Shown here one piece after another: positions 6,261 through 56,830 of a DNA stretch of 64,000 nucleotides. The position numbers were made by a program, and so were the translations under genes. Source of the stretch: Morinoia aosen (lineage: Eukaryota; Arthropoda; Malacostraca; Amphipoda; Talitridae); NCBI GenBank assembly GCA_030386875.1, contig CM059563.1, positions 45,848,102-45,912,101 of the forward strand. The letters are read 5' to 3'. The first letter of the stretch is position 1. Every line of letters starts with the position of its first letter. Below the pieces are notes generated by a model that was given only the letters and a program-made list of their open reading frames with translations, was not told where the DNA came from and searched no databases.

Positions 6261-6385
6261 TCAAATTTTTCCTGTCCTATTCTAATCTATTCTTTAATGT
6301 TTAATTCAAATCTATTTTTCAATTCTATTTCTTTTCATTTCACAACAATTTTTAAAAAATGTATTTGCACTCTGTTCAGTATTTT

Positions 6386-6857
6386 CACTCCAGCACCTGC
6401 CCCACTCCAGCAACTGCCCCACTCCAGCACTTGCCCCACTCCAGCACCTGCCCCACTCCAGCACCTGCCCCCCTCCAGCACCTGTCCCACTCCGGCACCT
6501 GTCCCACTCCAGCACCTGTCCCACTCCAGCACCTGCTCCACTCCAGCATCTGCCCCACTCCAGCACCTGCCCCACGTCAGCATCTGCCCCACTCCAGCAC
6601 CAGCCCCACTCCAGCACCTGCCCCACTCCAGCACCTGCCCCACTCCAGCACCTGCCCCACTCCAGCACCTGCCCCACTCCAGCACCTGCCCCACTCCAGC
6701 ACCTGCCCCCCTCCAGCATCTGACCCACTCCAGCACCAGCCCCACTCCAGCACCTGCCCCACTCCAGCACCTGCCCCACTCCAGCACCTGCCCCACTCCA
6801 GCACCTGCTCCACTCCAGCACCTGCCCCACTCCAGCACCTGCCCCACTCCAGCACTT
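6386..6857. repeat. 17-bp minisatellite, about 28 units
   Basis: The tandem unit is CACTCCAGCACCTGCCC, with few substitutions. The plus strand is C-rich and the complement G-rich. Because 17 is not a multiple of three, each frame cycles with a 17-residue period. That explains the long overlapping proline/threonine- and glycine/tryptophan-rich frames on both strands. These are not genes. Confidence 0.97.
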
Positions 6858-7018
6858 ACCATCTCACTTTTATTCTACTTCAACTCGTCCTTACGAAATT
6901 ATAGTCGAAACAAATGATATATAAAATAATGTTGCCATGCCTCATGACAATGGTACTTCAACACCTTGGCTAGCATGAAGGCATCTTTCTAGCAGACTCA
7001 CATGATAGTCTGCCCGAT

Positions 7019-8259: not shown

Positions 8260-8595
8260 GATTAAAAATTAGTTTTAGCTTCCCTTAGCACTACAGAGAT
8301 GTTCAAGGAGAAGAAGGATGAAGGCACCATTTAGTATGGAGTTACGTGAAAGAAACAGTATGTCAAGAAGGTAAGGGTATGAAACAAGATAAAATTGAAG
8401 AAGAAAGTAGTCGGTGCTGAAAAACAGGACAGCAGTTAAGCGAAAAAATATGGTCCTGTAGAAAACAAAAAACATTATATTTAAACAAAATAGAAAGCCT
8501 ACCTAGCTCTCAGCTCCGGCCCTCACACATTTCCCCAAGGGAGTGTTTTTTACCATACTGTAGATATAACAGTTGTATACCCCTGAGGGGGGTCG
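8260..8595 (-). mobile_element. SINE-A copy 1
   Basis: This copy belongs to a family of about 360 bp found at least 16 times in the window. In element sense, which is the minus strand here, it begins near CCCCTCAGGGGGATAC, runs through a TTAGGTAGGCC block and a T-rich segment, and ends at AGGGAGGCTTAAAC with a short TAATC-type tail. Flanks GAACTACCAAATGATT (8244-8259) and GAACTACCAGATTATT (8596-8611) form a slightly decayed 16-bp target duplication. That length is typical of LINE-machinery retroposition. The minus-strand frame at 8275-8475 is a by-product of the T-rich element. Confidence 0.8.
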
Positions 8596-23897: not shown

Positions 23898-26800
23898 TAG
23901 TGTGCTGACGGGCTTACGATAGAACAGCTCACTCTCATTTCTCTGTGAAATGGTGTTTAGGTCCTCAAGAGAACCCCGACTATGAAGATATCCTCGTCAC
24001 GTCCCCAGCAGCAGGACCAGCAAAATAAGACGCCCGCGAGTCACCAGTAAATAGCATTGGTTAGAGCTGGGTTGCCTTCACTCTTCTCAATTGTAAGAAA
24101 TTAATTTGTATGATCATTATTTACCTTTCTGTTCCTCGCAACATTTGGTGGCTTCGAGAGAGGCAAATAAGAATCGTAACGAAATTTAATTTGGTTTTAA
24201 GCACGAATTGTAATTCGATAGAATATGAGAAGGATGTGGCAAAATTTTCGTTTTACCTTAGTTTTCGTAGGCAAAACATTTTCATACCGATGGCTGTATG
24301 CGTCAAGAAAATGAGGTTTTACCAGTTCAGAATAGTTTTTTACGTAGATAAGAATTGTGTGCAATTCAGAAGATTAGAAAGGTCTTCTATAAAGCTTAAC
24401 TGTATAACCCAGTCAGCATTTATTAATGGCTGTTCAATGGGGTGACGTAGGAAACGAAGGGTCAGTACTGGATTCCCGTGGAAAGTGTAATTTCAGTACG
24501 GGATTAACTCTGGCTTCTCTTTAAAGAGTAAATTTACGTCTCGGGCGAGTTGGGTCAGTAATGGGTTCCCATTCTCAACGAGATTATTGTGGGAAGCCTG
24601 TTTCGTTCCGGTATATTCATTTCAGTTGAAAAGGAAAACCGATTGTAAGCCCGTACTGGCACTCCAAGAAAAATACTATACCAAATACATTACTGGAAAC
24701 CAAGCGTAAGAATATGCTTAAAAATGCATATTGTGTAGTTATAAATTAAATTAAATTAAATTATATAAACACCTGGTGTTACGCTACAAGGGAAATAATT
24801 TAATCGTGAAATATAAAAAAATACAACGAGCAAAAAAGTTGTGCGTTAGTGTATGTTTCATGAATTTGTAACGCCAAGAAATTTAAATAAACGTTTAAGT
24901 ACCTAAGAATCATTCATTACAGCAACCATACCTGATTACTAAATCCTTACAAACTACTATTAACATAAGGATTTTGTAGATACGAAATTGTTCAATAGTT
25001 ATTTGCTAAAAAAAATAAAATTAGGCTAGGTACCCTGGTACAGAGTCACCAATTATGGGAACCGAATCACCCATACTGATTGATTTTTCTTACAAGGCGC
25101 ATCCTTCACTGAGAGAAATTGTCTATTCATCATGTATCTCAAAACCGGTCACGGTGTATCGTACTCGACATCAATCGAAAAAGGGGAAAGAGAGATAGGA
25201 AACGACGATTTATGTTTGTTACGAACAATAGCCATCAAAATAGTAACTCTAATGTATCAAATTTGAGAAAACTCGATTAAACACATACATTCAAGAACCA
25301 TTTCGCGGCAATGAAATTAGAAAAAAAATAAAACATTTACAATACAATAAGGTCTTAATAATTTATGAACGCAAATACTAATTCTAATGACGCAGTCAGA
25401 ACAGTACCTATAATACATCAAACTCTGTTGAACACATAGGTCGAAGAAAAAAAACATTTGACATCAGTTAATATGAAGAAAGTAAGGTAATAAAATATTG
25501 ACAATACACCATGGTCGTAATAAATTAATGAAACTGTTCCTGTCCATACATAAAAAAACTTTTTACAAGTTACAGGCCCTATATCACCTCGAATAGTAAT
25601 TATTCATCAATGAAGTTCTTAACTCTTTGCTCGATGGATTTTAGTTGAATTAATTTTGGCTTGTATGAATAATAATTTTGGCTTTTTGGCTTATATAAAT
25701 AATTGAATCATTGGTTCGAGTAAAATATCGCTGTCAATAGGTGTTAAGACAAACTTGCATATGTAGCTTATAGGTTACAGCAAGTTGTCCTTTCAAAAGA
25801 GCAACTTTTATCTATAGCCTGTATGAAGTGTAGGAGCCTATAGTACTTTGCCGGGAAAAATGGCATGTTGAGTTTGCCGTTAAGTTTCGTTGACAGAAAA
25901 TACACATATATTAACAAAGTTCATTTAAATTTTGGACTTTGGTAACTAACAAGAACTAACATATAAGCAGTTGATAACAAGTGCATAAATGTATGGAAAA
26001 CTTGAATAACTACCTAAGTTAAATGTTTTAAGATTATGGGCATAACAGACATTTCTTAATAAGGAAAACTCTTTTATTTGCGCTTCCACTAGGCCTATAC
26101 GTATATCGATTGGGAAGTAATAGACTTGAAAATTTTAAAGTATCAAGTTAGTGCATTTCAGAACAAATGCTTGTACGTTTTCTGGTTTTCAGGGCATTTT
26201 AAATCTGTATACAGGGTTTAAGTCTGTTGAAATGTCATGCTTTGTCACCAATTAGCCCCCTTTAATATCTAGCGGGTATTATGCACTATAAAGACACGTA
26301 TACCAATTGAGGACTCTAATATTATAGTTTAGTAGAAGCCAATATTGGCCATATTTCATTGCATGTATCAACTTCATTGGTGATAAGTTTTTATCTATCA
26401 CATCGGGCTTACATGTTTTATATAGCTGCACAAGCGGTTGTGTTAAGAAAAATGAAGAGACTCTTGCGTAGAACTATACTCTTCAGCGCAGGAATTTAGA
26501 ATAGAATTATTCTAAATAAAAAAATGTAGAAATTTTCGTAAATAATTATGCTATGTTCGATATTTTTATTTAATAAACGTATAGATTACAGAATTACTTG
26601 CGGAAAAGTGTTGATAAAGTTAATGTTGGTATTACTACGCAGCTTTTTTAAACAAGCAATAACCTAAACCTGTCAGACCGGTGTTTGTGTGTGTGTGTGT
26701 GTGCGCGCAAAAAATTCGCGCGTATTTAGCGTGTTATCAACTGTATAGGCATTGTGCATTGTTTTAGGATATTCATAACTTAAAATTAGGGTGTTTAAGT

Positions 26801-26919
26801 TTACCATGCAGCTATTTCTGTTCTTTTGTGCTCATAAAATGAGAAGTAGCTAGGCTTAGTTAGATTAGGCTATGCCTAGTCAGTGTTGAAGTATGACCCA
26901 GGCAGTGTAAAGTAGGGCT
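23898..26919. other. AT-rich stretch, nothing recognised
   Basis: A 111-codon plus frame at 24110-24445 shows no family resemblance. A short TG/CG dinucleotide run lies near 26687-26710. No mobile-element copy was recognised. Confidence 0.5.
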
Positions 26920-27090
26920 ACCTAGCTAGGGTAAAAGCAGGACTGACCGGCCCTGCACTAATAAGCTAACTCTCCTCCTTAACAAAAAGCAATGGAGAAA
27001 AGGAGCAGGCTCTTTACTCCAATTGCTTTTTGTTAAGGAGGCCAGTTATTACTGCAGGGCCGGTCGTTCCTGCCTTTACCCTAACTACCT
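26920..27090. repeat. Foldback (inverted-repeat) element, arms about 70 bp
   Basis: The left arm (26920-26997) and right arm (27017-27090) are inverted copies at roughly 85% identity. Both read AGGGTAAA.GCAGGA, CGACCGGCCCTGCA or its variant, and CCTCCTTAACAAAAAGCAAT. The loop is about 20 bp. Flanks are rich in CTAG and CCTAGTTAG. A partial third copy of the arm lies at 28165-28194. This is MITE-like. The family is unknown and no clean target duplication was seen. Confidence 0.85.
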
Positions 27091-28774
27091 AAGTTAGGCC
27101 TAGTTAACTATACCTAGTTAGCCTACATACGGCTAAGCAGTGTTGAACTATCTAGGCCTAGTTAGAACTAGCCTAAGCTGTGTCTAACTCCTTTTAATAG
27201 GCTATAGTCTTTTGGGGCAATTTTTGTGACTGCCACTTCTCTAACTAGAAAATAGAGTTGAGGCAAAATATTGATATAATATTGAAATCACAATACTATT
27301 TATTCCTTCTCACAAATATGAGGGTGAAAATGGATTTTTTTTTACTTTTTTTGACCTTTCATTTTACAAAAATTAGGGGAATAGAACTTGACCTTTCTTG
27401 TTTTAACCTATTCTTGGTCTGTGTGTGTCTATTTTACTGTTTTCAATAATTTTAGTGAAAGAAAAATCAATTTTTTTGCTCTCCCCCCTCAAATTTTTGA
27501 TAAGGAACAGATATTAAAGTGAATTTTATCAATGTTTCTCCCTAAGTCTGTTTTCTAGAAAAGCAGCAGATTTAAAATTTGACAAAAAGAAATAAATTTA
27601 TATTTATATGGTCATCTGCTAAAGTATTACCAAAAACATTGCTGCCCATAATCAGTAAATAAATGTGAATGCAGCCCATGAGTTACATTTAAGTTTTAAT
27701 CGCTCACAAAAGGCTGTATTAAATTTGTTCCGTGGCAACACTTGTGTTTGTATTTTATTGCTGAAACCAGGCTAGATTTTAATCTTTTTCTCAGAGGTTT
27801 CAAGAAGTTTCCATCATACATATCCTTCTATGGATAGGCCTAACTAGTCAGCAACAAAGTGTTTTCCCCAAGCAAAAATATATTATTTATACAGTAGTTT
27901 AATAAAATTGTCCCTACAAACCTTGTTACCACCTTCTTTCTTGTAAAGTAGAAATTTATTGGTAGAATCTAATATTTTTTGAGTTGTGATAGGAATTTCT
28001 GTTAAGTTTTTTGTGTATTAAATAAGATTTCAGTAGTAACTGTACTTGTACATAGAGTGGGTTAGCCTATGCACTCTGTTAATTGTTCATGAATTAAGAA
28101 GTGTACCTATGTGCAACTGTAAATATTTAAACCGTATTTTTCAAAAAAGCTGTTATCCTCCCCAGTAGGGTAGATGCAGGAGTGCTCGGCCCTGTCTTGT
28201 TTCTGCTTGTACATATTGAGATTAAAAAGTGTTACAAAAAGAATTTAATTATACTAAGGTAGGTTTTTAAGCACTTTTTTGTAGTTGTGTAGTCCATTTT
28301 TCATTGTTAAGTTGATTGAACAATATTTTTGTTACGGGAAATTAATAGCATCGTAGGCTAATCTGACAACTGCGTTTGCCACAGTTAAGCAATGGGTACG
28401 ACTGTCTTACGATGATTCAATAATTCTACCCTGCCAAACGGTGATAATTTGCGTAAAAATCTATTAGCTACTGTCCACTTCAAAAAATTGACCAAAATGT
28501 GCAATGTACTACATATAGTATGACACCTATTGGACAAGCTGCAGGAGACATTTCTTTATTGGAAGTAGCTACTTGTAGCTGACTAAACTTGTACCTGACT
28601 ATGAGAATATGGGACAATCACAAAGAAAACTGAAATTGTTGGAAATTCAGCACAGATGTCTCAAAATGTGTTAATAGAAAATATGAATAATAATAGCCTA
28701 GTAAGAAAAAATAATAGCTACCTACCTTTGCAGAAATCTTAACATCTGATTGTCAGCCTTGCCTGCTGCCTCAG
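27091..28774. other. AT-rich stretch upstream of the transposase
   Basis: Holds one partial copy (28165-28194) of the arm motif of the 26920 foldback, GTAGGGTAGATGCAGGAGTG followed by CTCGGCCCTG. A 63-codon frame at 27258 is not recognised. An acceptor-like CTGCTGCCTCAG ends at 28774, just before open sequence leading into the transposase frame, so a 5' exon could lie here. Confidence 0.5.
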
Positions 28775-28849
28775 GTCTGTGTTCATAGTGTTTATTTAGA
28801 AGCCCCTGATTTTGGAGTGTGTCAGTGCAGTTGTACTAATTTGAAAGAA

Positions 28850-30940
28850 ATGGATAGAAAACGTTTGAAAAAACCTCTCCACGTGCTGGCAAAAAAACAG
28901 AAAAAACGAAGAGTATATGACACTTTGAATGTAAAAGCTCGTGTGTCAAGCATTGATCCAGGTTCACCAGTGAGCACCAGCGAAGCTAGCGACGTCGAGA
29001 GTGATTCACTGTTGGACTCTATGCCTTGCTCATCAGGAGTAGTAGTTAATCATGATGATGAAACTCTACTGGAATCATCCTCTGGTTCTTTTTCTTCCAG
29101 GCTTACAAGTTCTTCTCAAACAGAAAATTTTAGTCAAAATTATTCATTAAACCCTAAAAGTAGTACTTTATTTCAAAAAGAAAATTCTTTGTAATTTACC
29201 ATTGCAGAATGGTTTCAAAAGGAAAAAAGTGTGCCTTACGATGCAGTTGATCGATTACTAAAATTAGTGGAAGCCAATGTCTTTCCAGGGTTTCCGATAG
29301 ATGTGCAAACTTTGGTTCACCACAATAGCATAACTAAGGGCAATGAAAGTGACTTGTTTGAAGGCGGAGCTGAATATGTTCATGTTAACAACTGGATCAA
29401 ATGTCTGAAACTGAAAGAACACTTGAAAGTCAACTGGTCAACTGATCTTGGGAGTAATTTTACCTTGGCCATCAACATTGACGGAATTCCTCTTTTTGAC
29501 AAATCTCCTAACTTTCATCTGTATCCTATTCTTATAAAATGTCAAGAGTGTCCAACTAAAATTTTCACAGCAGGATTATTTTGTACTAATAGAAGTGAAA
29601 ATCAAAAGTTAGTTGATTGCAATCGTTTTTTACAAATGTTAGTAAATGATTTGAAAAACTTATTGGCTGAAAGCATTCCAACTCAGAATGGCAGAGTAAA
29701 ATTTGATATATCTGGACCAATAATATGTGATGCCCCTTGTCGAGCTCAGCTAAAAAACATTGTATACCATTCAGGGTATAATTCTTGTGAGAGGTGTTAT
29801 GTTCATGGTTCTTATCATGGTGGGCATGTAACATTAAATAAGACCGATGTTCCCTTGCGAACTAAACAATCATTTTTGTCACGTGAAGACACTAGGCATC
29901 ATCATGATTCTTCAACATTAATTTTAGAATCGATTGGTATTGATTTAGTCGGTTCCATGGTTCTTGATTATATGCATCTCTGCTGCTTAGGTGTTATGAA
30001 ACGCCTGCTGCAAAGATGGCTCAAGTCACCTGCAGCCAACCGAAAAGCTCAATTTTCTCGCATTGCTGTTGCAACACTTGAGCTTTCAATAAAAGGTGCT
30101 GAACCATTCATTTGCCGTGAATTTGTTAGGCATTTTCAGGTTGGACTTTCTAAACATCGGTTCTGGAAAGCCACTGAGTTTAGACTAATGTTGCTATATG
30201 TTGGACCTGTTGTTTTAAGAAACAAAGCTATAATGTCACATGATCATTACAAAACTTTTCTTAAATTTAGTGTCAGCATGCGACTTCTCTTAAGTGATGA
30301 GCAGCAAGAGAAGTTCAATTTCATTAAATCCCTCTTACTTGAATTTGTTGAAGAGTGTCAGCAACATTATGGCACTGAATTTATTACATATAACGTGCAT
30401 AATCTTATTCACTTACCAGATGATTATGCAAGGTATGGAAACTTAGAAAACATTAGCTGCTTCCCATATGAAAGTTTTCTAGGTGAGCTAAAAAGCTGCA
30501 TCAGGTCAGGTAATAAACCACTCAAACAAATTGAAAAATTTGCTACAGTAAAAAATGAACAAATTTCTACATTAAGTCACCTCCATTCAAAAAGAGAGCA
30601 ACCTGAATTGAAATTTTCTAAAAAAGGAGTAATTATTAATAATAGTCTTATTAAACCAAGTCAAAACCCAAGCAAAGACAACTGTGTAATGCTTAATGAC
30701 AAGTCTGTTGCAATTGTTACAAGTGCATCTCATGAAACACTGAAACTCAGAGTGTTTGAATCCAAGGAAAATTTATTCCATTATCCAATTTCTTCATCTG
30801 ATGTTGGCATACACTTGCTCCAATATTCAGGCATGGAAAAAAAAGGGAAAGTGAAAGATGTGAAGAAAAAGTGTATGATTCTCCCCTACAAAAGAAAATT
30901 TGTTGTAATTGAGCTTCTTCATACAGACTTCTACAGGTGA
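28850..30940 (+). CDS. CACTA/EnSpm-type transposase (Transposase_21-like), one internal stop
   Basis: Cut-and-paste DNA transposase of the EnSpm group, recognised from its conserved blocks. An ATG at 28850 (GAAAGAAATGG) opens a basic, then serine-rich N-terminus. The frame extends upstream to an acceptor-like site at 28774. Counting codons from this ATG, candidate acidic catalytic positions are D211 in NIDG, D294 in CDAP, D373 in DYMHL, E443 in WKATEF and E541 in PYESFLGEL. C313 and C316 (CERC) may bind zinc. The block YNVHNLIHLPDDYARYG is typical of the family. There are 696 codons, interrupted once by TAA at 29192-29194, after which the same frame runs to TGA at 30938. An ATG opens the next gene 4 bp after that stop. 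A donor-like CAG/GTGAGA overlaps the stop. Family assignment is confident. Present activity is not. Confidence 0.9.
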
Positions 30941-30944
30941 GAAG

Positions 30945-33900
30945 ATGTCTTCATCTATAAAAAAATATGTAGGAGTGTATTTTGAAAAATCTAATGATAA
31001 AGCAGTGGTACCCTCATCGTGGGTAAAAACTAGAAAAATGGTTCACACAAAAGTGCTTGGCCTTCACATGGTGATCCAGTAGCCCTTGCAAAGCAGTTGG
31101 AACCACCAGAAGATTCTTGGTCTTTCTACAGCTGCCATATCATTACATCTGCCAGTAAGTAATTTTTGTAGCTACGTGTCATAAATTTTGGTCGAATTAT
31201 GTTCATTTCTACATCTGAATTTTCAATATTTAGACCATGCATACACACATGTTAATGGTAATGATAAAAGTTTTATATGTTAGTAACATTTTGATTGCCA
31301 AGGCATAATTTTAGTGATACATCCCATTAAAATTCACCAATTATACAGTGATTAATTACTCATAAAGTGGGATTGACCCTGTGATTCAGGGTCACTGATG
31401 AACTGTGACCCTGTAAGTCAATGAAATAATTTCTCATTTAAAGGAACTATTTGAGGCAGCAATAATAATGATGGCTGAAATTTTATTTAATCTATTGTGC
31501 CTATCTGCAGCCATTTTTGTATGAGAAACAGCAAAAACTGTCTTTAGAAGTTTTTATCTAGTGGATGATTGTTTAGTTCATTCAGTGCTGCAATATTGTG
31601 TAGAGTGCTGCAGTATTGTGTACAGTGCTGCTGTGCTGCATAGTGTGCGGCAGTATTGTCTACAGTGTTGCAGTGTTGTGTGCAGTGCTGCAGTGTTGTG
31701 TACAGTTCTACAGAGCATGCTGCAGTGGTGTTCAGTGCTGCAGTGTCATATACAGTTCTCCAGTGTTGTGTGTAGTGCTGAAGTGTTGTGTTTATTATGT
31801 TGGGCAAATTTTTACTAGGTTCTCTGGGTCTAAAATGTTTCTTATTTGTAGATTCCTACAAGAAGTGCTACCGGCTGCTGGATGGTTTTGACACGGACAG
31901 CGGTATGTCATCTGTGGAGTGGAGTGATGCTGGTGGCCTACAATCTTCAAGGTAAAATTTCTTAGAAAATAGCCAGTAATAGCAGTTTTTTCAACTGGGC
32001 ATCATTAGCAGCTATTTCTAATGTCACAGTGCTATAAAAAAGGGTAAATGTAAGCAATAATAATGTCATTGGTAATAAGGTGTACGTACCAGTGACCAAT
32101 ATCATTTCAGGTATTGTGCAACATGGGTACACAGAACTAGTGTCTTTAGCTGCCACTATGTAGAATATACTGTATATGTATGTATTTTATGTAAATAGTT
32201 ACATATTTTCACAATTGTTGCTATAGAAATTCAAAAATATGAAATGAACTCAGCTGATAATGTTGCTTCATGGTGTGTGCACTACTAAGAACATCTTATT
32301 TCTGTTCTAATTGGTAGCTACATACCTAGGTATTATATGAAGATTCAAAGTTAGGTTTAGGCTCAACAAGCAATAGTGACAATTTTATATTCTGTACAAC
32401 ATTATTAAAAGTATATTCAATAGTAGTCTATTCTTGATGAGGAATAGCTGGACTACATAGAGGGTAAATTATTACCTATCTCATCAGGTGCTGGCAATTT
32501 CCACCAGTTTAATCATCCTGAGATTGAGCAGAGGGTTGAACTGCGGCATAATCCTGGAACTGGTTGATGGCTATTGCACTGCAATAGTGGTTGAAACCTT
32601 TTGAGTATTTTTCGGGTGGAACTTGGTTTCAAAACCTTTCTTCACGGCTGCCGTGTTGCTACTTGTCTTATCCATCCTAGCAGATGATGAACTTGGATTC
32701 TTTAGCAGCAAAGGGTGAATCTTACATGAAGCTGAACAAAATGTTCACCTAATAATAAAGTTAACTCCTAGTTCAGCTTGAGTTTCAAACCAAGTTTAAC
32801 TTTCAGTAAAGAATCTTCTCTGCCGAAGAGTCCAAGTTCATCATTCTGAAGTATGGAGTAGTAAAGTACTCAGCACTTCTGCTGTGACCAGGGTTTTTAA
32901 AATGAAGATTTTTTTCAAAGACAGGTATTTCAACGACTCCTTGACATGTTCTTTGATTCTACCTCGATCCAATCCGCCATACCTGTTTTTACTCCCTCCA
33001 AATCACGTCGAAGGGGTGTTGGGGTGGGTGGGTTTCGAATACCAACATTTGATGAGGTAATATTTAACTCTTTATAAGGCTCGCGTCTCTCTTGACAGAA
33101 ATGAAATTCATTAAATTAATTTTCAAAAATGAGTTGAAGCCCTAACCCATAAACTTACTCCAGTTCGACCCTCAACTTGTAGCTTTCTTTTAATAATTTC
33201 TCTATATGTCAAGCTATAACTTGGCATTGTGTTCATGACGTTGACCTATACTGTGGAACCCCATTTTGCCCCAAAGCACAGACGTAGTTGCTTTTGTGAA
33301 ACTAAATTTTCTGGCAAATTGTTAAAATTATCATTGCAAGAAAAAAATCCACTTGGCAATCTTTTTGCCAGTTAATTGAAACAATTTCTTGGAACACGAT
33401 CATTAAACTAAACCTGGCTTGCCGGTTGTGGACCACGTCATTTATTCAGTCGATATTGATTACGTGGTCCATATTGTGTATCACATAAAATAATCAGTTA
33501 ATTTTTTTAGTTTGTGATATAGCACAGTATGAGAAAGTTAGCATAACTATGTAGGTATGTAATATACTTACAACTCATCCATTTAAGACCTTTCATTAAG
33601 CAGTAGCAATGCTATTGTACAATTAGCTAATGTCAGCCTTAACGATCAGATCTACTGTGGATGCCTCCAGTAGTTCAGACGCACCTCAAGCGCGCTGTTG
33701 CTGCCAGGACTTGACAGCTGCACTTTCAGCGAAGGTCAGCAAAGTTGCAGCAAATATGCAAGTGAAGATGGACATGATAGAAGAGAAGCTGGACCTAGCA
33801 CTTGAGGATTTGAGGGGTTTGGCCGCAAAGCTTTCCAAGGAAGATCTTATTGCTGGTCCCCCTGCCAACAATGATGATGAGTTGTCTGCACTCATTTCAT

Positions 33901-34868
33901 CGAACCATTTTGTAAGTCACTATTGCTTAGAGCTTAAAAGTTCAGACTGCTGTCGTTTCTACCTGCTAATTGTGTAGATTCTACTTAACTTGCTACCGAA
34001 ATGTTTCGGTAAACCCTCAACGGAGGTACCAAGTTCGAAGTCTCGCTCATTTCAATGTAACAAGGTCAATATACATTCAAGTCCATACGGTTATTGGCGC
34101 AGCTTCCATGGCGTATACCTTAATGACTTGATTATATGATGAGCTGCCAAGTGTTTTATATAGACTCATTTATCACTTACCTATCTGTGCCAATGCGAGT
34201 GTGGCGATTTAGCATTTCTTTCATCATTATTTCCTCTTAAATACCTGAGTCTTTTTCTGGAATACAGCATTTTTATGCTGCAAGAGAAGTACCTACTTAT
34301 AACTGTTTGTGCTTTACCCTAGATAGAGAAATTCAGCGTTATTTGAAGATACTGTACTACGAGCTTGTACGACTTGCTTGTACACGGTATCGACTTGCGT
34401 GTATATAACGCTCTAGATCTTCCTAGGCCTAGTAATTTTTGACAGTAACTTATTATAATGCGGTTGCAGAGTGAAGATGAATGTAACTTCTAGTTAAGCA
34501 GAGACCTCCAACCATTAACGCGAGTGCTAATTTCTTCTTGCGTATCCTTGAGGATTATACACGAGTAACACGACACAAATATATAACCCATCAGTGAGCA
34601 TAGAGAAGAGCAACAAGGTTAGGTTTGTCCATACTGTTCTATGGGAATAAACAGATATTAGGTTACTTCAACTTAGACAGCACTTACCTCTTCTATTTCT
34701 TGGCCACTTTATTTCCTTTAATTTCTATACTTTATTCTTCCTCCTTTTTCTTAATGTGCTGTTCCTATGCGCTAATATAAGTGTCCTGTGCGTAGATTAC
34801 ACATTTCCTTTTGTTCCTTCCTTTTCTGATCTTGGGAACGCCTTGTAGTGGCTAGGGGAAGCCAAAAC

Positions 34869-34932
<64 letters not shown>

Positions 34933-37679
34933 GTACATATGTATATATGTATATATATGTACTACAGTAATACAAATATGTGAATAAACGTACGGAACCA
35001 ATTATGTTTATGCAGCTAGCTAATGCTCAGGTTCACTACCTTTACTTGTCCTAGATTTACATAACGAGTAAACCCCCGATGCACGTTTACGTTTTATTTT
35101 TAACTAACAATTATTATAAAGTAATTTAGGGGAACTAGAACGTTATCATTGTTTTCGTCAGATCATGAGCTTGGCAGCATTGGAAACCCCGAGTCTTCAA
35201 GATACTTTGCGTCGAATGCTGCAGCGAATGATGACGAGAACACTGGCCCAGACGTATTCATTCACTGGGCTTGGTCTCAATCGGCAGCCTACGAAGAATA
35301 AATTTTCTTCTCATAAGGCATATCAGCTTCTCTTAAGTAAGTTATATTTCATGGTGAATTGAATTCACTGTAGCTACTTCTATATAGGAGCGGTATGATT
35401 TTTGTCGTGAAAATGTTGCACTGTTATATTCTTCCTACCTGCTTGTTTGTAAGTTTTTAATGTTTCAAGCATGTCATAATATAAGCGTGTTGAAAATTAG
35501 TTACATATTAATTGTAAATTAGCTATCAGTGAAAGCTTCGTACGATCTTTCTGTACTTGTTTCCTATAATTAATGGAGAGGGAACATACGTGACCAATGT
35601 GTTTTAGCTACTAGCTATTATGTGTTCGTTTTTTCCAGGCGCTCTACGGTGGACAAGATTTAGAGACGTGTCCCTCACCGACATAGAGAAACGAACTGCG
35701 TTGCTCCTGAGGCAGGCTGTGGACTGGTCCGGAAGTACTCGCAAGCGTAAACGTAGTAAGTACCTTCTTTTTGAATTTAGAAACCATTTGTAATCCATCT
35801 GGATTTAGAGATAAAATTAGAATGTGTAGAGTATTCAAGATTTTTCTCTTATCAATTTGAATTTCATAACCGAATTGGGCGTTTGATTGAATTAAGGTTT
35901 GACTCAGTGAAGTTATACATTGCAATATTTATAAGTATGAAAAATGCAGAATTTTATTTGATGATGTACAAAGATGCTGAGAATGTACATTAAATCACCT
36001 TATATTTACTAAGTTATTTAAATACAATAATTATGAATGAATTTAAATAAAACTGCATAGGTTTGATTTAAATGAGAAGTAAATTTACGAAAATAATGGT
36101 GAGCTCGAGGCTACGGTTGTAGTTGAGTGTAGTTTACATGAAGACATATCTTGCCTCAAGTGTGCCAGGTAAAAACCAACACTGTTGAACACCTGAAACA
36201 AGTGATTTCAGCCTCAATTCAGGAAACAACACCTGCTATATTAAATTTTTTCCGGTGCACGGCCCCTCAGGGGGATACAACTATTGTATCTATGGGAAGT
36301 GACGCTCCCAGGGGGATAATGTCAGTGCCCGAATCACTGGTTAGGTAGGCCTTCTTTTTGTTGAAATATTGTGTCTTTTGTTTAGTTAAGGGCCAACTTT
36401 TTTCGGTTCACTGCTATCCTTTTATTGAGCACCGTCTACTTTTTTCTTGAACTTTTTTTCTTGTTTGAACTTCCTTCGTAACTTGCTGTTACTATGCGCT
36501 TAGTATCCTGTGCGGGGCACACCTCGTGCATAGAATCCCCTTGTACGTGTCCATACTAGATGGTCTCCTTCATTATTCCTCTGTGATATCGTCTTTGTTA
36601 CTGAAAACGGAGTCTTAAACCACTCAAATAATAATAATTTCCGGTGCACGGTAGATCACGGGAGACTATGCCCAGCCGTGCAAAAGGAGCAAATACCAGA
36701 GCATATTAAAATGAATTGATTCAATTTCGAGGTATGGTAGATGTTCTTACTGTTATAAAATTTCAGCATTTGAACATAGAAATTACGAGGAATTTCTAAA
36801 TGACCTTGTCAGCGTATGTATTTTTTTGAGGTATTGCTGTACGTATGAAATGTGTATAGGGAAGCTGTTAGAACAGATGAATTTTGAGATATGTTCATAT
36901 CATTCGGTGTCGAAACAGAAAATGACGAATAGTGGTAGCCCAATCTGCCATGTTGCAGATGTTTAGGCGCAAAACGTGTATTTTTGTACTGCATTCTGAG
37001 GCACAAATATTCAATTAAAAGCTGTACTTCGATTGTTTGTCTCGTCAGACTAAGTTAAAACAATGTAATTCTATATATTTAAGGTGTTTGCGAGTGATTC
37101 TGTGAGAGGGAAAACGATAGCACGTTCTTTGGGATGTGGGAATCTATGCACGAAATTTGTGTCGTTCACCTGCTACATTGCAATATTGAGATTGGAAAAA
37201 ACTAGAAAGTTGGGAGTAAAAACTGCTAGAAGAACGAAAGAGCAGTAAATGGGAAAATGTAAACAGTTATGAAAAAAATCTTCGAAAACATAATTAGCTT
37301 GTTGAGATGCTGTTCAACTTTTACCTAACTCATAGCTCCGGCCCTTACTTTCTTATAAAGTGTTGCAAATCCGGAACGTTCAATATTCCTACCCCGGTAA
37401 ATGGAAGTTGTCAAAATCATTACTGTTACGATGATTTTTTCTAAGCGAAATTGTATTGTTTCAGATAGTGCAGTGGGATGCTCAGCTGGTACGTCGGTTG
37501 GTGCGCCCTGTGAGCAAGCATTTGTGGTGGAGCAAGAGTATTGTGCGGCGGGATGCTCAGCCAGTACGTTTGTTGGTGCGCCCTCTGAGCAAGTATTTGT
37601 GGTGGAACATGAGTGCCCCAATCGAGAAGAACAGTGCTCCGTCCTCGGGGGAGCCCTCGAGACATCGTTCTCGCTTTAA
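30945..37679 (+). CDS. Seven-exon DUF4806-domain protein, second gene of the EnSpm-like element
   Basis: Exons assembled from splice sites and phase are 30945-31154, 31852-31951, 32921-33056, 33627-33911, 35162-35336, 35639-35755 and 37465-37679. Donors are GTAAGT or GTAA-type, and acceptors end in pyrimidine tract plus AG. The product is about 412 aa. Exon 1 has a VVPSSWV block and an AWPSHGD block, as in proteins of this group. Exon 4 has a probable coiled coil (AANMQVKMDMIEEKLDLALE). Exons 4-6 form a DUF4806-like domain (LQDTLRRMLQRMMTRTLA, FTGLG). Exon 7 is cysteine-bearing with a 25-residue duplication. Exon 1 changes frame by one base near an A-run at 31048-31053, a deletion or an assembly error. 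The function of DUF4806 is unknown. The gene accompanies EnSpm transposases in animals, so I infer a mobility partner or DNA-binding role. A host gene derived from one is the alternative. Confidence 0.75.
31570..31800. repeat. 20-bp minisatellite in intron 1 of the DUF4806 gene
   Basis: About eleven imperfect units near AGTGCTGCAGTGTTGTGTAC. Overlapping plus and minus frames of 85-91 codons here are repeat by-products. Confidence 0.88.
32683..32845. repeat. Small inverted-repeat element in intron 2
   Basis: The outer arms of about 30 bp match in inverse orientation: left GATGATGAACTTGGATTCTT, and right, when complemented, AATGATGAACTTGGACTCTT. The interior holds a further pair, AAGCTGAAC and GTTCAGCTT. 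It is MITE-like, with no clear target duplication. Confidence 0.6.
34625..34872 (+). mobile_element. Old SINE-A copy in intron 4 of the DUF4806 gene
   Basis: Highly diverged but collinear with the family in element sense: CTATGGGAATAA, CAGCACTTACCTCTTCT, TGCTGTTCCTATGCGC, GTGCGTAGATTAC and TAGGGGAAGCCAAAAC. Its 3' end runs directly into a TA microsatellite, which probably grew from the tail. Confidence 0.6.
34873..34965. repeat. TA dinucleotide microsatellite
   Basis: About 25 TA units, then interspersed GTATATA and GTACATA steps. It abuts the 3' end of the old SINE-A copy. Confidence 0.97.
36263..36637 (+). mobile_element. SINE-A copy in intron 6 of the DUF4806 gene
   Basis: Plus-sense copy beginning CCCCTCAGGGGGATACAACT and ending in an AATAATAATAA tail. 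It is flanked by a perfect 14-bp duplication, TTTCCGGTGCACGG, at 36249-36262 and 36638-36651. This fixes both ends and shows the tail is at the 3' side. Internal blocks include GGTTAGGTAGGCCTTC and TTTTTTCGGTTCACTGCT. Confidence 0.93.
37085..37350 (-). mobile_element. Very old SINE-A fragment in intron 6
   Basis: Minus-sense remnant recognised from GGGAATCTATGCACGAA, a diverged middle and TTTACCTAACTCATAGCTCC followed by GGCCCTTAC. No flanking duplication. It ends about 115 bp before the last exon of the DUF4806 gene. Confidence 0.5.
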
Positions 37680-38089
37680 AAGTTGATTTCGTAGAACATT
37701 TTTTTCTTTCATAAAAATGAGAGAAGTCAGTGATTAGAATTCATTACTTTGCTTTACAGAAAGTGAGCGGATATTATTTGAACAAGAGTAGCTTCTCAGT
37801 AGCTTTGTGCATTATTTTTACTCAAGGAAACGCATCCATCTTATTATTCTGTATTCTTGATTCGTTTTTTAATAAGCCCCTCATGATGATACGAACAGCA
37901 TTTCAATAAGACTTGACACTGTTTTATTTAGTTAAGTGTTTGTTCATTTGAGTTTTTATTTGGCATGCCATTTAATTGAAATAGATTGAGCTTTCTGTTT
38001 TGCTCCGGACTTTCGTTATGGGTTTACTGCTTGCTGTCTTTTCTTCAGTTCTTGTGACTTTCTTCTTCTAATTTCCATTCAAGGATGTA
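37680..38089. other. 3' flank of the DUF4806 gene
   Basis: No canonical AATAAA was seen close to the stop codon. AATAAG occurs near 37875. No further exon or terminal inverted repeat was recognised. Confidence 0.4.
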
Positions 38090-38207
38090 ATGTGCGGGGC
38101 ACCCCTCGTGCGTAGAATCCCCTGTACGTGGCCATACTGGATGGTCTCCTTCATTATTCCCTCTCTTAGAACACCTTTGTTGTGGTTAGGGAGGCTTAAA
38201 CTAACGT
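38090..38207 (+). mobile_element. SINE-A fragment, 5'-truncated
   Basis: Only the 3' third is present: TGTGCGGGGCACCCCTCGTG, GTAGAATCCCCTGTACG, CCATACTGGATGGTCTCC and TTAGGGAGGCTTAAAC. The GTGCGGGGCAC block is shared with the copy at 36263, suggesting a subfamily. Confidence 0.75.
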
Positions 38208-38359
38208 ATGTAACTAACTCAAAAACTATTGAAATCTGATTATGTTTTCTGTTCTATGATTTGTTTGCACGCTTATAGAAAGTGGAAGTTTATTTAACTT
38301 GTTTATGTTCAAAGTGGCCCTCTGTTGATATGTATTTCATGGAAATAGTCGGATTTAGA

Positions 38360-38746
38360 CCCCTCAGGGGGATATAACTATTGTATCTATGGGCATTTAC
38401 ACGTCCAGAGGGATTGTCCCGATGTGGTTAGGTAGGCCTTCTTTTTGTTGAAATAGAATAGAGTTTTGTTTAGTTGAGGACCAGCTTTTCCGGTTCACTG
38501 CTATCCTTTTCTTCAGTACCTCCTACTTTCTTCGTCACCTCCTACTTTCTTCTTGAACTTTTTCTTGTTCGAACTTCTTTCTTGACTTACTGTTTCTATG
38601 CACTTGGTGTCCTATGATGGAAAAACACACCTTGCTCATAGATTCCCCGTGCACGGGCCTATACTAGATGATCCCTTCATTATTCCTCTCTTTAAATCGT
38701 CGTTGTATCGGATAGGGAAGCTTAAACTAATTAATAATCTAATCTT
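38360..38746 (+). mobile_element. SINE-A copy
   Basis: Plus sense, from CCCCTCAGGGGGATATAACT to TAATAATCTAATCTT. A short ATTTAGA repeat at 38353-38359 and 38747-38753 may be what remains of the target duplication. The CCTCCTACTTTCTTC block is internally duplicated near 38518-38550. Confidence 0.88.
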
Positions 38747-38753
38747 ATTTAGA

Positions 38754-39453
38754 TGTGTATGACAGCAATTGATCTCGATTAATGGTACCAAAGGCACTTT
38801 TTTCATGGTGGTTAATAGACTATCTTATGTTATGTGTTATGTAGTATAAAGTATTTCTCTTTGTTTCTTTCTTCTTTCTGACATGCTGCTTCACCGTTGC
38901 TATGGCGTTATATATTGACTCGAACTAGACATTAGCTGTAGGCTGATATATCTGGGAACTTGTAAAGCAATAACTATTTATATGAAGGATTTAGGTTGTA
39001 ATTTTTTGCTCTGGAACGTTGTAAAAAGTAGTAGAATTTAAAAATGGAATCATAGTAGACACCCTGTTATTACTGTTCATAATGTATCATCTAATCAATG
39101 TATCATGTAATTTAGCCATTTTCGCAAATAAATTTCGTCCAATTGAGGTAATTTGCTCCAGTGCAGTAGCTATATGCCTTATTGTTAAGCCACTTCGCGC
39201 GCCTGGTGGGATCTTGGTTTTGGGTGAGTCTGTGCGTGTGCCTGATTCTGGTTTATTATTATCATTATTTTATGCTTGAACGCGATCTTTACTGTCGCTC
39301 CATTAAAAGAACTTTATACGTTGATTTCTTTAAATATATGTGCATTTTTTAAATCAGATTCCTTATCCTGAATATCTTATAGTTTTTTTATTTGTTCATG
39401 GGAGTGAATTGTTACTTATATCTGTAGATGTTAACTAATCAAGATGCAGGCTT
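38754..39453. other. No gene recognised
   Basis: AT-rich. A 65-codon frame at 39082 is not recognised. Confidence 0.5.
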
Positions 39454-39516
39454 GCCTGCACTACTCAGTCTTGACGCAAGGAGCTTCGGTCTTACGTCAG
39501 GACAAGTAGTGCAGGC
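39454..39516. repeat. 12-bp inverted repeat bordering an 87-bp array
   Basis: GCCTGCACTACT at 39454-39465 and AGTAGTGCAGGC at 39505-39516 are perfect inverted copies around a 39-bp loop. The right arm is also the start of the first 87-bp unit. Confidence 0.8.
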
Positions 39517-39700
39517 AAATCAGTGCTAGGATAAGATAGAAATCCCACAATTCTGAACGGGTCAGGGCAGGATTCCCAGCGTTAGAAACGGAATACTGCT
39601 GGCAAGCCAGTGCTAGGAAAAGATAGGAATCCCACAATTGTGAACGGGTCAGGGCAGGCTTCCCAGCGCTAGAGACGGAATACTGCAGGCAAGCCAGTCT
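39511..39700. repeat. 87-bp tandem repeat, two copies plus a start
   Basis: Copies start at 39511, 39598 and 39685 with GC.GGCAA.CCAGT. They share AATCCCACAATT, GAACGGGTCAGGGCAGG and TTCCCAGCG blocks with few differences. Confidence 0.92.
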
Positions 39701-42700
39701 TACGGTGATGGGATATAATATTTTGCCCGTGCCTCAGGATGGTCTTCCGTTACTGGTCCTGCGGTAAGAAATGGGCTGCCTTCGTCAATCCAATACCGGA
39801 CAGCTTGGACATTCCGTGAAAAGTCCAGTAATGAGCTTACTGGGTGAATGCTGGTTCTCTTTCTCTGTGCTCTGTAACGACCCTTTGAACAGCCATCGAC
39901 AAATGCGGACTGGGAATGAACAAACATTCCCAAACTCAAACGCACACAAAGCATAAACGTTATTCACTGGTTTACTTGAACGTTACTTCTAATTACTTAC
40001 TTTAGAAATTTCACCGCCTGCGATGCGTGAAGTTTCAAAAATGTTGTTTTAATTTTTTATCAAAAGCTTGATTGAATCTCTTGATGGCGTAACCCTATAG
40101 CCTTTTTTTAGATTACCAGCATTAACATCAAGTCCTCACTGACTACAGATGATGGAAACAGTTTAACCGTCTTTCAGTGATCCATCAGCTGGCCAAGAGC
40201 CATCGTTCACATACTATGATACGAGTACATCCTCATCAGTCAACCAACACTCAGCAAGTTTGGTCCATCACTCACGCTGTGTCGACATCGCGTCCTTCGC
40301 ACGAGTCCGCTTCTGTTTATCCAGCATCGCGAGTCTCAAGCATGAGAGCTCCATTGACTTCACATGTGATCGCGCCGATGTCACCCTGACAGTAATTGAG
40401 AGGCGGTGACAACGATGTCAGTCAGCTGAAGTGCCGAGTGTGAGCCAGATATTGCCTTCCGATGTTAAATCCGTCAATGGAAGGAAGTCTTTGTTTCTCA
40501 TCTTCAAGCATCGAGTTTTGGTATGACGCTAAACGTCATTGACTTTACTGGAAACAAATTTATTTAACTACTAATTACTAGAAAAATTATATTTACATTT
40601 TCACATTTGGAAAGAAAATTTGAATGTTCATTCCTAAAAATTTCAAGTGCTCGTAGATGACTCACATGTACAAACTACTTAAATCAACGACCAATCGCAC
40701 CTACGCATTAGATCAAGGTTGTACAAGGTTGTCACAAAGTGCGCGGAACTCTTCGAACAAATATCTCCGATATTTCGAAAGATATTCAATCACTGAGCGT
40801 TCTATTACGCATGCATGAGCACCAGGAGAAGTGCTTTACTAGAATTACAGTGCTTTGTACGATGCAAAAATTCCCGCATTAATTATGCGAAGCCCCAAGT
40901 TTCCTCGCGGCGGGGTGCGATATGCTGCAAGTTTCAGCTGCGAGGTGAAGACGGGAAGAGGCATGCATAATGAACTCGATTTAATTTGCATGTATCAAAT
41001 AATGTTCGCTGGGAAATTTACCTCTCATTTTACTTAGATAAATAGACAGTGATTCAATAATTGCTGCATCTTGCATGCAGAATGGTTCTTATTCTTATCA
41101 TGGAACCATGAGATTTGAATGTGAAGCTCAAAATTGGTAGAGTTTTTTGCATAATAGTCGACTAGCTCAAAAATATTTGCAGTACTCCGTGGGAAAAAAT
41201 GAATGTAAAGTATTTGCTTTCGTTCCATTAAATTCCTTCCACAATATGAAACATACTGGAACTGGAACTGGAAACACAACTGGATTGGCAAATGTTTACG
41301 TGAATCCTTCAAAAATTCCCATAATTCAAAATTTAGGCAATAATTCTCATTGAATCTACGTTAACGAAAATTCAATTTTAAGTCCATTGGAAACCATCCT
41401 GAGCCCATTATTTGAAATAGAGCGAGGAAGAGATATTCACAAGTTGTGGGAGACGGGGGGGGTGGGTATGTGGGGTGGAAGTATGGGAGAAAATAAAGGA
41501 GGGTTCGTTTGGCGCTTTAACACGTTGACTGACTCCGATATTGTACGGTTGCTTACGGTCAGTTTGGTTAGGCTAGAAAGAAGTCATTTTGAAAAATCGA
41601 TTTTTCTGCTCTAATACATTCTTAACCTTTTTGAAAAGTGTAAACACTGCACTTGATCCATAATGTGTTACCTTTTACTCTTAAGTTTATTTCGAAAAAG
41701 GTAGCAAAATAGTAGCAATGTTATTTGCATATTACGGTACGTAAATAAGCGATTTACCAGGTGGTACACATATGTGCCACTTAGGAGTCAACGTGTTAAT
41801 CCGCTTTCCATCGTTTAAAATATATATTTGACTTTTTATAAGAAGTCTACGGCAGTGTTGTAAAATAATTTAGTACGCAAATGAACTGAAATCCCGGGAG
41901 TTAGAATGAAAGTAAAATCGAAATTGGTTTTGATGGCATCATTTTCTGCATGACTTCTCGCAAATGTTGTTTCGCTATAAGGTCAAGGGAACATATCATT
42001 GAAATGACTGAATTTAGAATGGCGGAGAAGAGCAGAATTATTCAGAAACTATATTAGAGCAAAATTTTCAGAAATGAAGGAGATCACACAGACTTACACT
42101 TTGTGTTCGCCGATCGACAAACATTCCTCAGTCAATCGATCATGAAACGCAAATTCTACGGATTTCAGTTTAAACAAAAAAGTGATTTATTTTTATAACA
42201 AGCTCATTTAAAAATTTTCATAACCTGTGCAAATGAATTCTGAAAAATTTTCAGATAAGACATCCATGGGGTATTGAATTTATGAGTGAAAAATTTCAAA
42301 ACCGAAGAATAAAGAAATTTTCATGTAATTTCTAAAATATTTTCTTAACAGACGTAAGCACTATTTATGTATAATAATTGCTGGGAATAATCATTAAGAA
42401 AAAGTGGAAAAATAATTTTTTGAACAACTAATGCTATAAAAATGCGGCGTAACTTCCACGAAGATGTAACTTTGCGAATTGCGATACCATGTTCGGCAAA
42501 GTTTTTGAAAGTTTTTAGCTTCTGAGCTTACCAAACAGTCGATGTCAAGTTTTATAAGTGCTCTAACGTAAACAGTGGAAGATTTCTGAGCAAAGATATT
42601 CATAAATATCAGAAGAAATTTAAAAAGTTTCAAAATAAAAAAATCAGGATACTTCAAATCCAAAATTTTGCAACATTTAAAGCAAGGCCTCCACAGAATT

Positions 42701-42990
42701 TCCAACAAAAAAATAACAGAACATTTCGGAGCAAAAAATTCATGGAAAATAAAAAAAAAAAAGTTGTCCGAATTTCAGAGCCAAAGAACTCACAAATATC
42801 CAGGTAGAAAAATCCATCTACTATCAGAACAAACTAATTGGGGCAATTCCACAACAGCAGCATTCAAATAATTCCAAAGCCAGCATCCGACTGCCTCACT
42901 TGCTTCGCCGGCCTGCCTGGGCCTCACTGCCCGGCGCAGCGAGTGCGCCGCGGCACCGCGGCTGTGCCAGGGCACGTCGAGGGTACAGGT
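39701..42990. other. No gene recognised
   Basis: Short frames lie on both strands (60-104 codons). One, at 40177-40389, is rich in Ser and His. None resembles a known family. A G-run lies near 41454. The stretch 42880-42985 is CpG- and GC-rich and leads into the array that follows. Confidence 0.45.
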
Positions 42991-43745
42991 CAAGTGGACT
43001 GGTCAAAGGAGCAGGTCAAGGGTACAGACCAAGGGAACAAGTCAAGGAAACAAGTCAAGGAAACAAGTCAAGGGAACAAGTCAAGGAAACAAGTCAAGGG
43101 TACAGGGCAAGGGTACAGCCAAGGGTACAGCCAAGGGAACAAGTCAAGGAAACAAGTCAAGGAAACAAGTCAAGGAAACAAGTCAAGGAAACAAGTCAAG
43201 GAAACAAGTCAAGGAAACAAGTCAAGAGTAAAGGTCAAGGGTACAGGCCAAGGGAACAGGTCAGGGGCAGGTCAAGGTGCAGGTCAAGGGGCAGGTCAAG
43301 GGGCAGGTCGAGGGGCAGGTCAAGGGGCAGGTCAAGGGGCAGGTCAAGGGGCAGGTCAAGGGGCAGGTCAAGGGGCAGGTCAAGGGGCAGGTCAAGGGGC
43401 AGGTCAAGGGGCAGGTCAAGGGGCAGGTCAAGGGGCAGGTCAAGGGGCAGGTCAAGGGGCAGGTCAAGGGGCAGGTCAAGAGACAGGTCAAGGGGCAGGT
43501 CAAGGGGCAGGTCAAGGGAACAGGTCAAGGGAACAGGTCAAGGGATCAGGTCAAAGGAACAGGTCAAGGGAACAGGTCAAGGGAACAGGTCAAGGGAACA
43601 GGTCAGGGGAACATGTCAAGAGACAAGTGAAGGCATCGGGTCAAGGGAACATGTAAAGTAAATAGGTGAAAGGGACAGGTTAAAGAGCACAACTTAAAAG
43701 AACAGGTCCAGGGAACAGATCAGGGACCAGGTCAGGGAAACAAGT
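42991..43745. repeat. Compound 13/12/13-bp G-rich minisatellite
   Basis: Three blocks share a GTCAAGG core. The first is a 13-bp unit near AAGTCAAGGAAAC (about 43020-43255). The second is a 12-bp unit, AGGTCAAGGGGC, nearly perfect for about 20 copies (43258-43515). The third is a 13-bp unit near AGGTCAAGGGAAC (43516-43745). Because 12 is a multiple of three, the middle block is open in many frames as GQGA, RSRG or LDLP repeats. The 272-codon plus frame and its minus-strand counterparts are by-products. Confidence 0.95.
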
Positions 43746-55311: not shown

Positions 55312-56830
55312 TTATCGTTGAGACGAAAGGTGACGAATTATTTTGGCTTTAAATTCTCTAGGTCTTTGAGGGATTTTAATACTCAGGGGAAGTTTGTTCC
55401 ACAGTAAGGCGCCTGATATTGACTAAGCCTTCTGCCCTATGTGAGATGAACGATAGTTGACTAAGACATTATTGTTTCTGTTTGGCTTTTGGTTGGTTAC
55501 AGTCGGTGGATGGAAACGCACTTTCTCAGTATTGCTCTGAGGAAGATACAACGAGGAGAATACGTATTGGGACCTCTGCATGAGGAGCCTTTCTTGAATA
55601 GGAATCCAGCCGAGTTTATTAAGGAGAGGGGTTACGTGATCGCTTCTTTTGAAATTGTTGTTGCATACCACCTTGGCTGCGAAGTTTACACATTTTTGTT
55701 AATCCCTCTGAATGATTGAGGTAAGTCTCCCCATACTAGGTTGCAGTAGTCAATGCGCGATAACACAAGGAATTGAATGGCTAATAATCTGGATTTTTCG
55801 TCTAGCATACTTTTTATACGATGAAAAAACATTAAAGTTCCGTAGATTTTGTTGCAAGTAGTCTCAACGTGAGACTTGAAAGACATATTTCTATCAAACC
55901 AGATACCTAGATTTTGAACTTTTTCTGATGCATTAATATTATCATTTCCAACTGCGGAAGTAAGATCTGAAGTTTTTTTAATAGCATCATCGGATTAGAA
56001 AATAATGGATTGTGTTTTATTAGCATTTAATTTGAGACCATTTCGGTCGTAACATGATTTCAGGCTAGTCAGTATAGTTTCGGCTTTAATTTGCGTCTGT
56101 GGTATTTCCGATACAGAACTTGTTATTGAAATTTGAACATCATCTGCATACATTGAGATCCGTGCGTTAGAAGGCATCGGAGGGAAATCATCAACGGAAA
56201 TAGAAAACAGTAGCGGACCAAGAATGGATCCTGGTGGAACACCAAAATTGTTTTGAATGAATGGGGACAATTTGTCTTCCATGCGGACTGCAAGAGATCG
56301 ATTTGACAAGTAACTTTCAAACCATTGCGTGTCAACTCCCAAGTTCAGTATTTTACGTAGAAGTTTATCACGTTCGTCGCTATCGAACGCTTTAGAGAGA
56401 TCGAGTAGCAGCAAGAGTGTTTCATTCTTCTGATCGATGTCACTGTATATTTTTTCAGAGATATTGAGCAGAGCATCTTGAGTGCTAGTGTTTCTAATTT
56501 AGGCGTATTGATTTCGGTGAAGTAGATTTGACTCGTCCAGGTGAAATGACAGTTGATTTGTCACCACTTTCTCCAATATTTTGGACATTACAGGTAAAAG
56601 ACTGATGGGCCTGTAGTTTGATGCTGTATTTAGGTCACCCCTTTTATGCAACGGTCTAGTAAAGGAGTATTTCTATTGGTTTGGAAACGTGTTGGCTGCT
56701 ATTGCTGTATTAATTATCAGACGAATCCATGGTGCTGTGACTGGGTCTTTGATATATTGAAGACTGATACCATCATGTCCAACTGCCTTTGTGTTTTTCC
56801 ATGAACATGTTGATCATTGGTTTCTAATCT
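55312..56830 (-). mobile_element. CR1/L2-like LINE, 5'-truncated and broken
   Basis: Reverse transcriptase part of a non-LTR retrotransposon. In coding order it shows AVGHDGISLQYIK (near 56790), NYRPISLLPVMSKILEKVV (near 56620), LLLLLDLSKAFD (near 56410), GVPPGSILGPLL (near 56240), MYADDVQ (near 56145) and NGLKLNANKTQ (near 56010). Then come the thumb block SRIDYCNLVWG (near 55730) and the C-terminal LLWNKLPLSI (near 55400), ending at TAA 55312. The reading frame is interrupted by at least one stop after the NANKTQ block, another upstream near 56500, and frame changes near 55680 and 56680. The endonuclease domain and first ORF are absent. The LLWNKLPLSI tail favours the CR1/L2/Crack group over Jockey or RTE. 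Confidence 0.9.

Follow-up and report, generated by a model that had tools for sequence, protein, structure and literature searches.

The amphipod Morinoia aosen carries, in a 64,000-nucleotide stretch of contig CM059563.1 (GenBank assembly GCA_030386875.1, positions 45,848,102 to 45,912,101 of the forward strand; hereafter the window), a transposase gene followed on the same strand, after 4 bp, by a spliced gene (gene 2) whose product resembles DUF4806 proteins. This arrangement raises the question whether the two genes form a single mobile module and, if so, what the second protein contributes and how both proteins are made. An initial annotation of the window had described positions 28850-37679 as a nearly intact EnSpm module made up of both genes, the second of which would help transposition.

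In this study, we delimit the mobile unit, compare it with its copies in the genome and follow the pairing of the two genes into distantly related elements. We favour, with a probability of roughly 70%, the reading that the window contains a recently inserted, coding-dead copy of a high-copy, cut-and-paste transposon of the TRC-type CACTA/EnSpm group, in which gene 2 would encode an analogue of maize TNPA expressed through alternative splicing. A conserved tie between animal CACTA transposons and DUF4806 gives a candidate function, testable in cells, for a domain of unknown function. It is also a possible source of DUF4806 expansions such as that of Hydra, which the available extract of one study tabulates among transposase domains (PMC7642931).

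Extent and ends of the element

An inverted-repeat scan of the window and an end comparison with 10 other copies place the mobile unit at 24408-39914 (15,507 bp), well beyond the 28850-37679 first assigned to it. Its terminal inverted repeats are 34 nt long and begin with CCCAGTC at both ends, that is with the CCC start of the animal TRC group. Exactly the same ends are found in all 11 complete copies, the window copy included. A 2-bp target-site duplication flanks 10 of these 11 copies and a 3-bp duplication flanks none; a count of 10 or more among 11 would arise by chance with a probability of about 3e-11. Hence the terminal repeats which the initial annotation expected from an alignment of flanks are present, and the duplication measures 2 bp instead of the expected 3. 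The proposal that the pair belongs to one mobile module is strongly supported by the common terminal repeats, the target duplications and the large number of dispersed copies.

Copy number, age and coding state

The genome searched comprises 1.99 Gb in 29 contigs. Scoring of the best 75 among 1745 candidates gave at least 76 matches to the transposase. Identity reaches 95-100% in 69 of these, and a few are fragments of a single copy. The end sequences, used as queries, gave at least 40 left ends and at least 40 right ends, and among the matches listed 39 of 40 left ends have a transposase match downstream on the same strand. For comparison with the window copy we picked 10 copies in which both ends are present, about 15.5 kb apart, together with the transposase; at least two end pairs with a spacing of about 22 kb, and one pair spaced by about 11 kb that lacks a transposase match, were left out.

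Any two of the 11 copies differ at 79-116 positions in about 15.45 kb (0.5-0.75%). Private changes occupy 2.9-3.4% of the columns over the 11 copies, with an even density in the upstream part, the transposase, the exons, the introns and the downstream part, and 14 variants are common to two or more copies. The low divergence and the star-like pattern indicate that the family burst recently from a single source and has decayed neutrally since. Two of the shared changes lie in the transposase and two in gene 2, and therefore we make no claim on selection for either gene.

The window copy itself is coding-dead and not nearly intact as annotated: an in-frame stop at 29192-29194 breaks its transposase frame, and exon 1 of gene 2 contains a frameshift near 31033. 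Among the 10 other complete copies, six have an intact transposase, seven an intact gene 2 and five both.

Classification of the transposase

The window transposase carries the D-x-M-H-x3-L-G motif (Box A) and a CxxC motif; its DG box fits the relaxed pattern alone. It had been annotated as a transposase of the Transposase_21 type, yet it has no Pfam match to Transposase_21 (PF02992). DUF4218, a domain that occurs in CACTA transposases, is the sole Pfam domain seen, at 19.2 bits (E 0.0011) and below the cut-off of 27; two distant relatives described below, those of the L053 family and of the L060 locus, score 18.7 and 13.9 bits against the same cut-off. A comparison with solved structures gave no meaningful match to either the transposase or the gene 2 protein, and a search of viral contigs gave two pattern matches, neither of them a transposase relative. 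As its ends, the 2-bp duplication and the motifs agree with those of animal EnSpm/CACTA transposons, we file the element with them (TRC-type) although PF02992 is unmatched; judged from these sequence features, it fits a new member of this group that Pfam does not place in Transposase_21.

Structure and homology of gene 2

The junction of the two genes agrees with the initial annotation: the transposase stop codon (TGA, 30938-30940), the spacer GAAG and the ATG at 30945 follow each other on one strand and do not vary among the 11 complete copies. The predicted chain of seven exons stands in its outline, with GT-AG borders at all six introns in every one of the 11 copies and a joined frame of 403 codons plus stop in the seven intact copies among the 10 others. 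Its borders at exons 3 and 4 are less secure. When the 922 AGs of one window-family copy were ranked with a consensus matrix, the exon 3 acceptor came 105th and that of exon 4 402nd; both acceptors are weak, and we therefore treat both borders as provisional.

The DUF4806-like domain announced for gene 2 is likewise upheld in part. Matched directly against DUF4806 (PF16064), the protein scores 13.1 bits (E 0.13) and does not reach the gathering cut-off of 25, so the link was examined through relatives. A PF16064 profile search of the genome gave 138 matches among the best 150 scored of 224 candidates, and five loci were read as sequence. The protein of one of them, L053, passes the cut-off with 28.8 bits. 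In a comparison of four sequences, gene 2 matches the L053 protein in two colinear regions, the N-terminus (51.6 bits over 72 aa) and the C-terminus (26.6 bits); its matches to the remaining three proteins are weak (E 0.045 or higher). Being homologous at both ends to a protein that passes the cut-off, the gene 2 product is a divergent relative of DUF4806 proteins.

Transposase-DUF4806 pairs across the genome

The same gene order recurs beside transposases that have diverged far from that of the window. At L053, read over 9 kb, a stop-split transposase precedes the DUF4806 gene on the same strand; it shares 30.6% identity with that of the window over 599 aa, and 215 bp separate its end from the DUF4806 ATG. 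The locus L060/L056, also broken, shows a transposase 29.0% identical to the window's over 482 aa, then a gap of about 900 bp and a DUF4806 match of 35.5 bits. Another transposase copy of the L053 family, at G000:C8:38255694-38257049, is listed with a 1557-aa open frame, over double the usual length of 665 aa, and may be a fusion.

Genome-wide, 52 of the 138 DUF4806 matches lie within 20 kb of one of 95 transposase matches, and all 52 are downstream on the same strand; 0.26 pairs are expected by chance. With 44 rows from one more family search included, the count rises to 60 of 138, again all (60/60) on the same strand and downstream, two of them more than 10 kb away. This count draws on all 95 transposase, 138 DUF4806, 76 window-transposase, 40 left-end and 40 exon-4 matches, and on 44 of the 93 rows of the further search: the 44 kept were taken to be copies of the query's own family, and the 49 omitted (about 37-52% identity) were judged by eye to be represented already in the list of 95. 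Constant spacings between the matched parts mark the families, with about 1467, 2035, 2212 and 2840 bp and, in the window family, 2714 bp to exon 4. Of the 40 exon-4 matches scored for that family, 38 lie downstream of a transposase match on the same strand, one of them 14 kb away, and two do not. Taken together, these matches indicate that a similar gene pair recurs in several distantly related transposon families of this genome.

Role and expression of the second protein

Under the preferred reading, a DDE-type transposase would cut at the 34-nt terminal repeats, and the gene 2 protein would bind DNA in or near the ends, help to pair them and regulate the element, in the manner of TNPA in maize Spm. 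By this analogy gene 2 would aid transposition, as the initial annotation had supposed, and the recurrent pairing suggests that DUF4806 belongs to a helper protein of the animal EnSpm/CACTA class. Alternative splicing of a single transcription unit would supply both proteins: the gene 2 mRNA would lack the transposase frame, removed as an intron, and a longer mRNA would retain it and so contain two frames. Consistent with this, an acceptor-like site lies 18 nt upstream of the gene 2 ATG and ranks 15th of 922 AGs in one copy of the window family by the consensus matrix used above; at the L060 locus the best of 251 AGs lies 57 bp before the gene 2 ATG.

Several results weigh against this reading. 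Besides the profile scores of both proteins given above, PF02992 and PF13960 (DUF4218) had no match anywhere in the genome at E 0.001; the controls were silent as well, so that for PF02992 insensitivity of the model and real divergence look alike in this search. An AlphaFold2 model of 29195-30937, built from a single sequence, had a predicted local distance difference test score (pLDDT) of 33 and was not used. One complete copy, c1, has no target duplication, and a genome search for an empty counterpart of the window insertion returned just the two flanks of the same insertion. The candidate subterminal motif CAGTANNGG occurs six times at the ends and once inside, and a comparable motif was present in 38 of 200 random block pairs, which is not significant. 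As regards splicing, to the low-ranking acceptors of exons 3 and 4 must be added the L053 family, where the best acceptor near the gene 2 ATG ranks 34th of 348. Finally, the linked loci are copies and not independent, which reduces the evidence from 60 events to about five families, in two of which the DUF4806 side of the pairing is known from coordinates alone.

Unpaired genes belong to the same side of the balance. The initial annotation had named unlinked copies among the results that would refute a joint module, and the outcome is mixed: linkage holds for nearly all exon-4 matches of the window family, but 78 of the 138 DUF4806 matches have no transposase match within 20 kb, and 43 of the 95 transposase matches have no DUF4806 match. 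Part of this may reflect detection limits, for the DUF4806 matches of the L053 family score about 30-31 bits, near the E-value limit, and the best candidates alone were scored. Another part is real loss. At L055/L061 (G000:C6:1876900-1881000), 128 N-terminal residues of a transposase are joined out of frame to a DUF4806 exon. An origin from a spliced mRNA was considered and dismissed, since the junction lies inside an exon at a 5-bp microhomology and thus marks an internal deletion. At L063 the 1.6 kb fetched upstream contain one unconvincing transposase match of 12 residues (E 0.007); this says little, as linked copies have their transposase beyond 1.6 kb. Four listed matches (G000:C26:8778018, C11:22188160, C21:9225504 and C11:19339376) belong to another transposase family, which has long open frames and no DUF4806 match within 20 kb; its partner would be either missing or diverged.

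Instead of a needed helper, gene 2 might encode a protein that inhibits the element, silences it or targets it, such as a chromatin protein with a damping or steering effect. In favour of this, at least one internally deleted element, L055, retains a DUF4806 frame although its transposase core is gone. A place beside the transposase in about five families fits a needed function, though it is compatible with regulation, and in the accessible part of the literature maize TNPA is reported both as helper and as regulator (PMC2613891). We consider an inhibitory, silencing or targeting role unlikely, yet worth keeping in mind.

The 4-bp gap had led the initial annotation to propose either a shared transcript with reinitiation or alternative splicing. 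Translation of both genes from a single two-frame mRNA, with reinitiation after termination, would suit the invariance of the gap in all 11 copies, and it has a parallel in the tandem two-frame transcripts of Spm (TnpD) and of the animal element SmTRC1, whose partial cDNA clone B4 has the transposase part first and was likened to the TnpD transcript (DeMarco et al. 2006, PMC1636069; what we say of animal CACTA elements here and below follows the available excerpts of that paper). In the L053 family the gap is 215 bp and at the L060 locus about 900 bp, which indicates that the short spacing is not conserved and is specific to the window family. Reinitiation is accordingly improbable in our view, and alternative splicing appears to be the better fit.

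If the element had captured a host DUF4806 gene on a single occasion and since carried it as a passenger, this would agree with the weak similarity of gene 2 to the Pfam family and with the capture of host DNA known from CACTA elements, but a homologous gene stands in the same place beside transposases 29-31% identical to the window's, so that the pairing looks old and we give this explanation very little credence.

A broader proposal can be made tentatively, at rather worse than even odds: animal EnSpm transposons could have in DUF4806 their dedicated second protein, a TNPA counterpart built on a BEN-type DNA-binding fold, whose metazoan spread and host genes would be by-products, some copies having been domesticated as chromatin or transcription factors. 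The initial annotation had treated the adjacency of EnSpm transposases and DUF4806 as known. The literature searched, mostly outside subscription journals and in part as excerpts, contained no published statement tying DUF4806 to a transposon and none naming a BEN domain together with EnSpm.

Features of the element and its surroundings

The coordinates are collected in Table 1. Within intron 1 of gene 2 lies a tandem repeat of about 20 bp (31565-31791). Repeated blocks at 36244-36662 and 38091-38730, including CCCCTCAGGGGGATA, show no gap relative to the majority of copies, and short frames elsewhere in the window, at 8421, 18375 and 60258, encode peptides resembling them; this suggests a dispersed host repeat that was already in the source copy before the burst. 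Outside the element, the long open frames at 188-1577, 6261-6917 and 42753-43661 look by translation like short tandem repeats (minisatellites) and not genes. Two adjoining minus-strand frames at 55686-56498, with a peptide containing YADDVQ, are presumably fragments of a non-LTR (long terminal repeat) reverse transcriptase.

Table 1. Features of the transposon and its two genes (window positions)
Feature	Position	Strand	Basis or remark
Left target-site duplication AA	24406..24407	.	2 bp in 10/11 copies
Complete EnSpm/CACTA-type transposon, 15,507 bp	24408..39914	+	inverted repeats; 10 copies with same ends
Left terminal inverted repeat CCCAGTCAGCATTTATTAATGGCTGTTCAATGGG	24408..24441	+	85% complementary to right arm
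Transposase frame, with in-frame stop and 6-bp insertion near 29405	28850..30940	+	intact in 6/10 other complete copies
Candidate splice acceptor ATACAG within last transposase codons	30925..30926	+	putative, from acceptor ranking
Spacer GAAG between transposase and gene 2	30941..30944	+	same in 11/11 copies
Gene 2 exon 1 (N-terminal domain), frameshifted	30945..31154	+	copy comparison
Gene 2 exon 2	31852..31951	+	GT-AG borders
Gene 2 exon 3, border uncertain	32925..33056	+	GT-AG borders; weak acceptor
Gene 2 exon 4, acceptor border uncertain	33650..33911	+	GT-AG borders; weak acceptor
Gene 2 exon 5 (DUF4806-like region)	35162..35336	+	GT-AG borders; profile and homology match
Gene 2 exon 6 (end of DUF4806-like region)	35639..35755	+	GT-AG borders; homology match
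Gene 2 exon 7 with stop codon, internal 75-nt duplication	37465..37679	+	GT-AG borders; repeat scan
Two 87-bp direct repeats, 89% identical, near right end	39507..39680	+	repeat scan
Right terminal inverted repeat	39881..39914	-	inverted-repeat scan
Right target-site duplication AA	39915..39916	.	copy comparison

Comparison with known systems

Among animal proteins with DUF4806 (PF16064), gene 2 takes its place through homology to a protein of the same genome that lies above the cut-off, while its own score lies below.

SmTRC1 and other animal CACTA elements have ends beginning with CCC, a 2-bp target duplication (in 7 of 14 SmTRC1 copies) and alternative splicing (PMC1636069). The window element shares the CCC start (CCCAGTCAGC, as against CCCAGTCAAC in the Aedes element), the 2-bp duplication, the D-x-M-H-x3-L-G and CxxC motifs and a second frame downstream of the transposase, for which splicing is predicted. 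It differs in its length of 15.5 kb, compared with about 4.5 kb for SmTRC1, and in that Pfam does not detect Transposase_21. The second proteins of SmTRC1, PrA and PrA2, are not labelled DUF4806 in the excerpts available, where no detectable conservation is reported for the non-transposase parts of animal CACTA elements (PMC1636069). SmTRC1 is known from transcripts, the window element from its sequence.

Maize Spm/En, with its transposase TNPD and the second protein TNPA, differs from the window element in its CACTA ends, in its target duplication of 3 bp and in that its splicing has been shown whereas that of the window element is predicted. In the accessible part of the literature, TNPA binds subterminal repeats and is required along with TNPD (PMC2613891). 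Both systems have two proteins, a transposase frame upstream of a multi-exon second gene, and a single mobile unit that holds the two.
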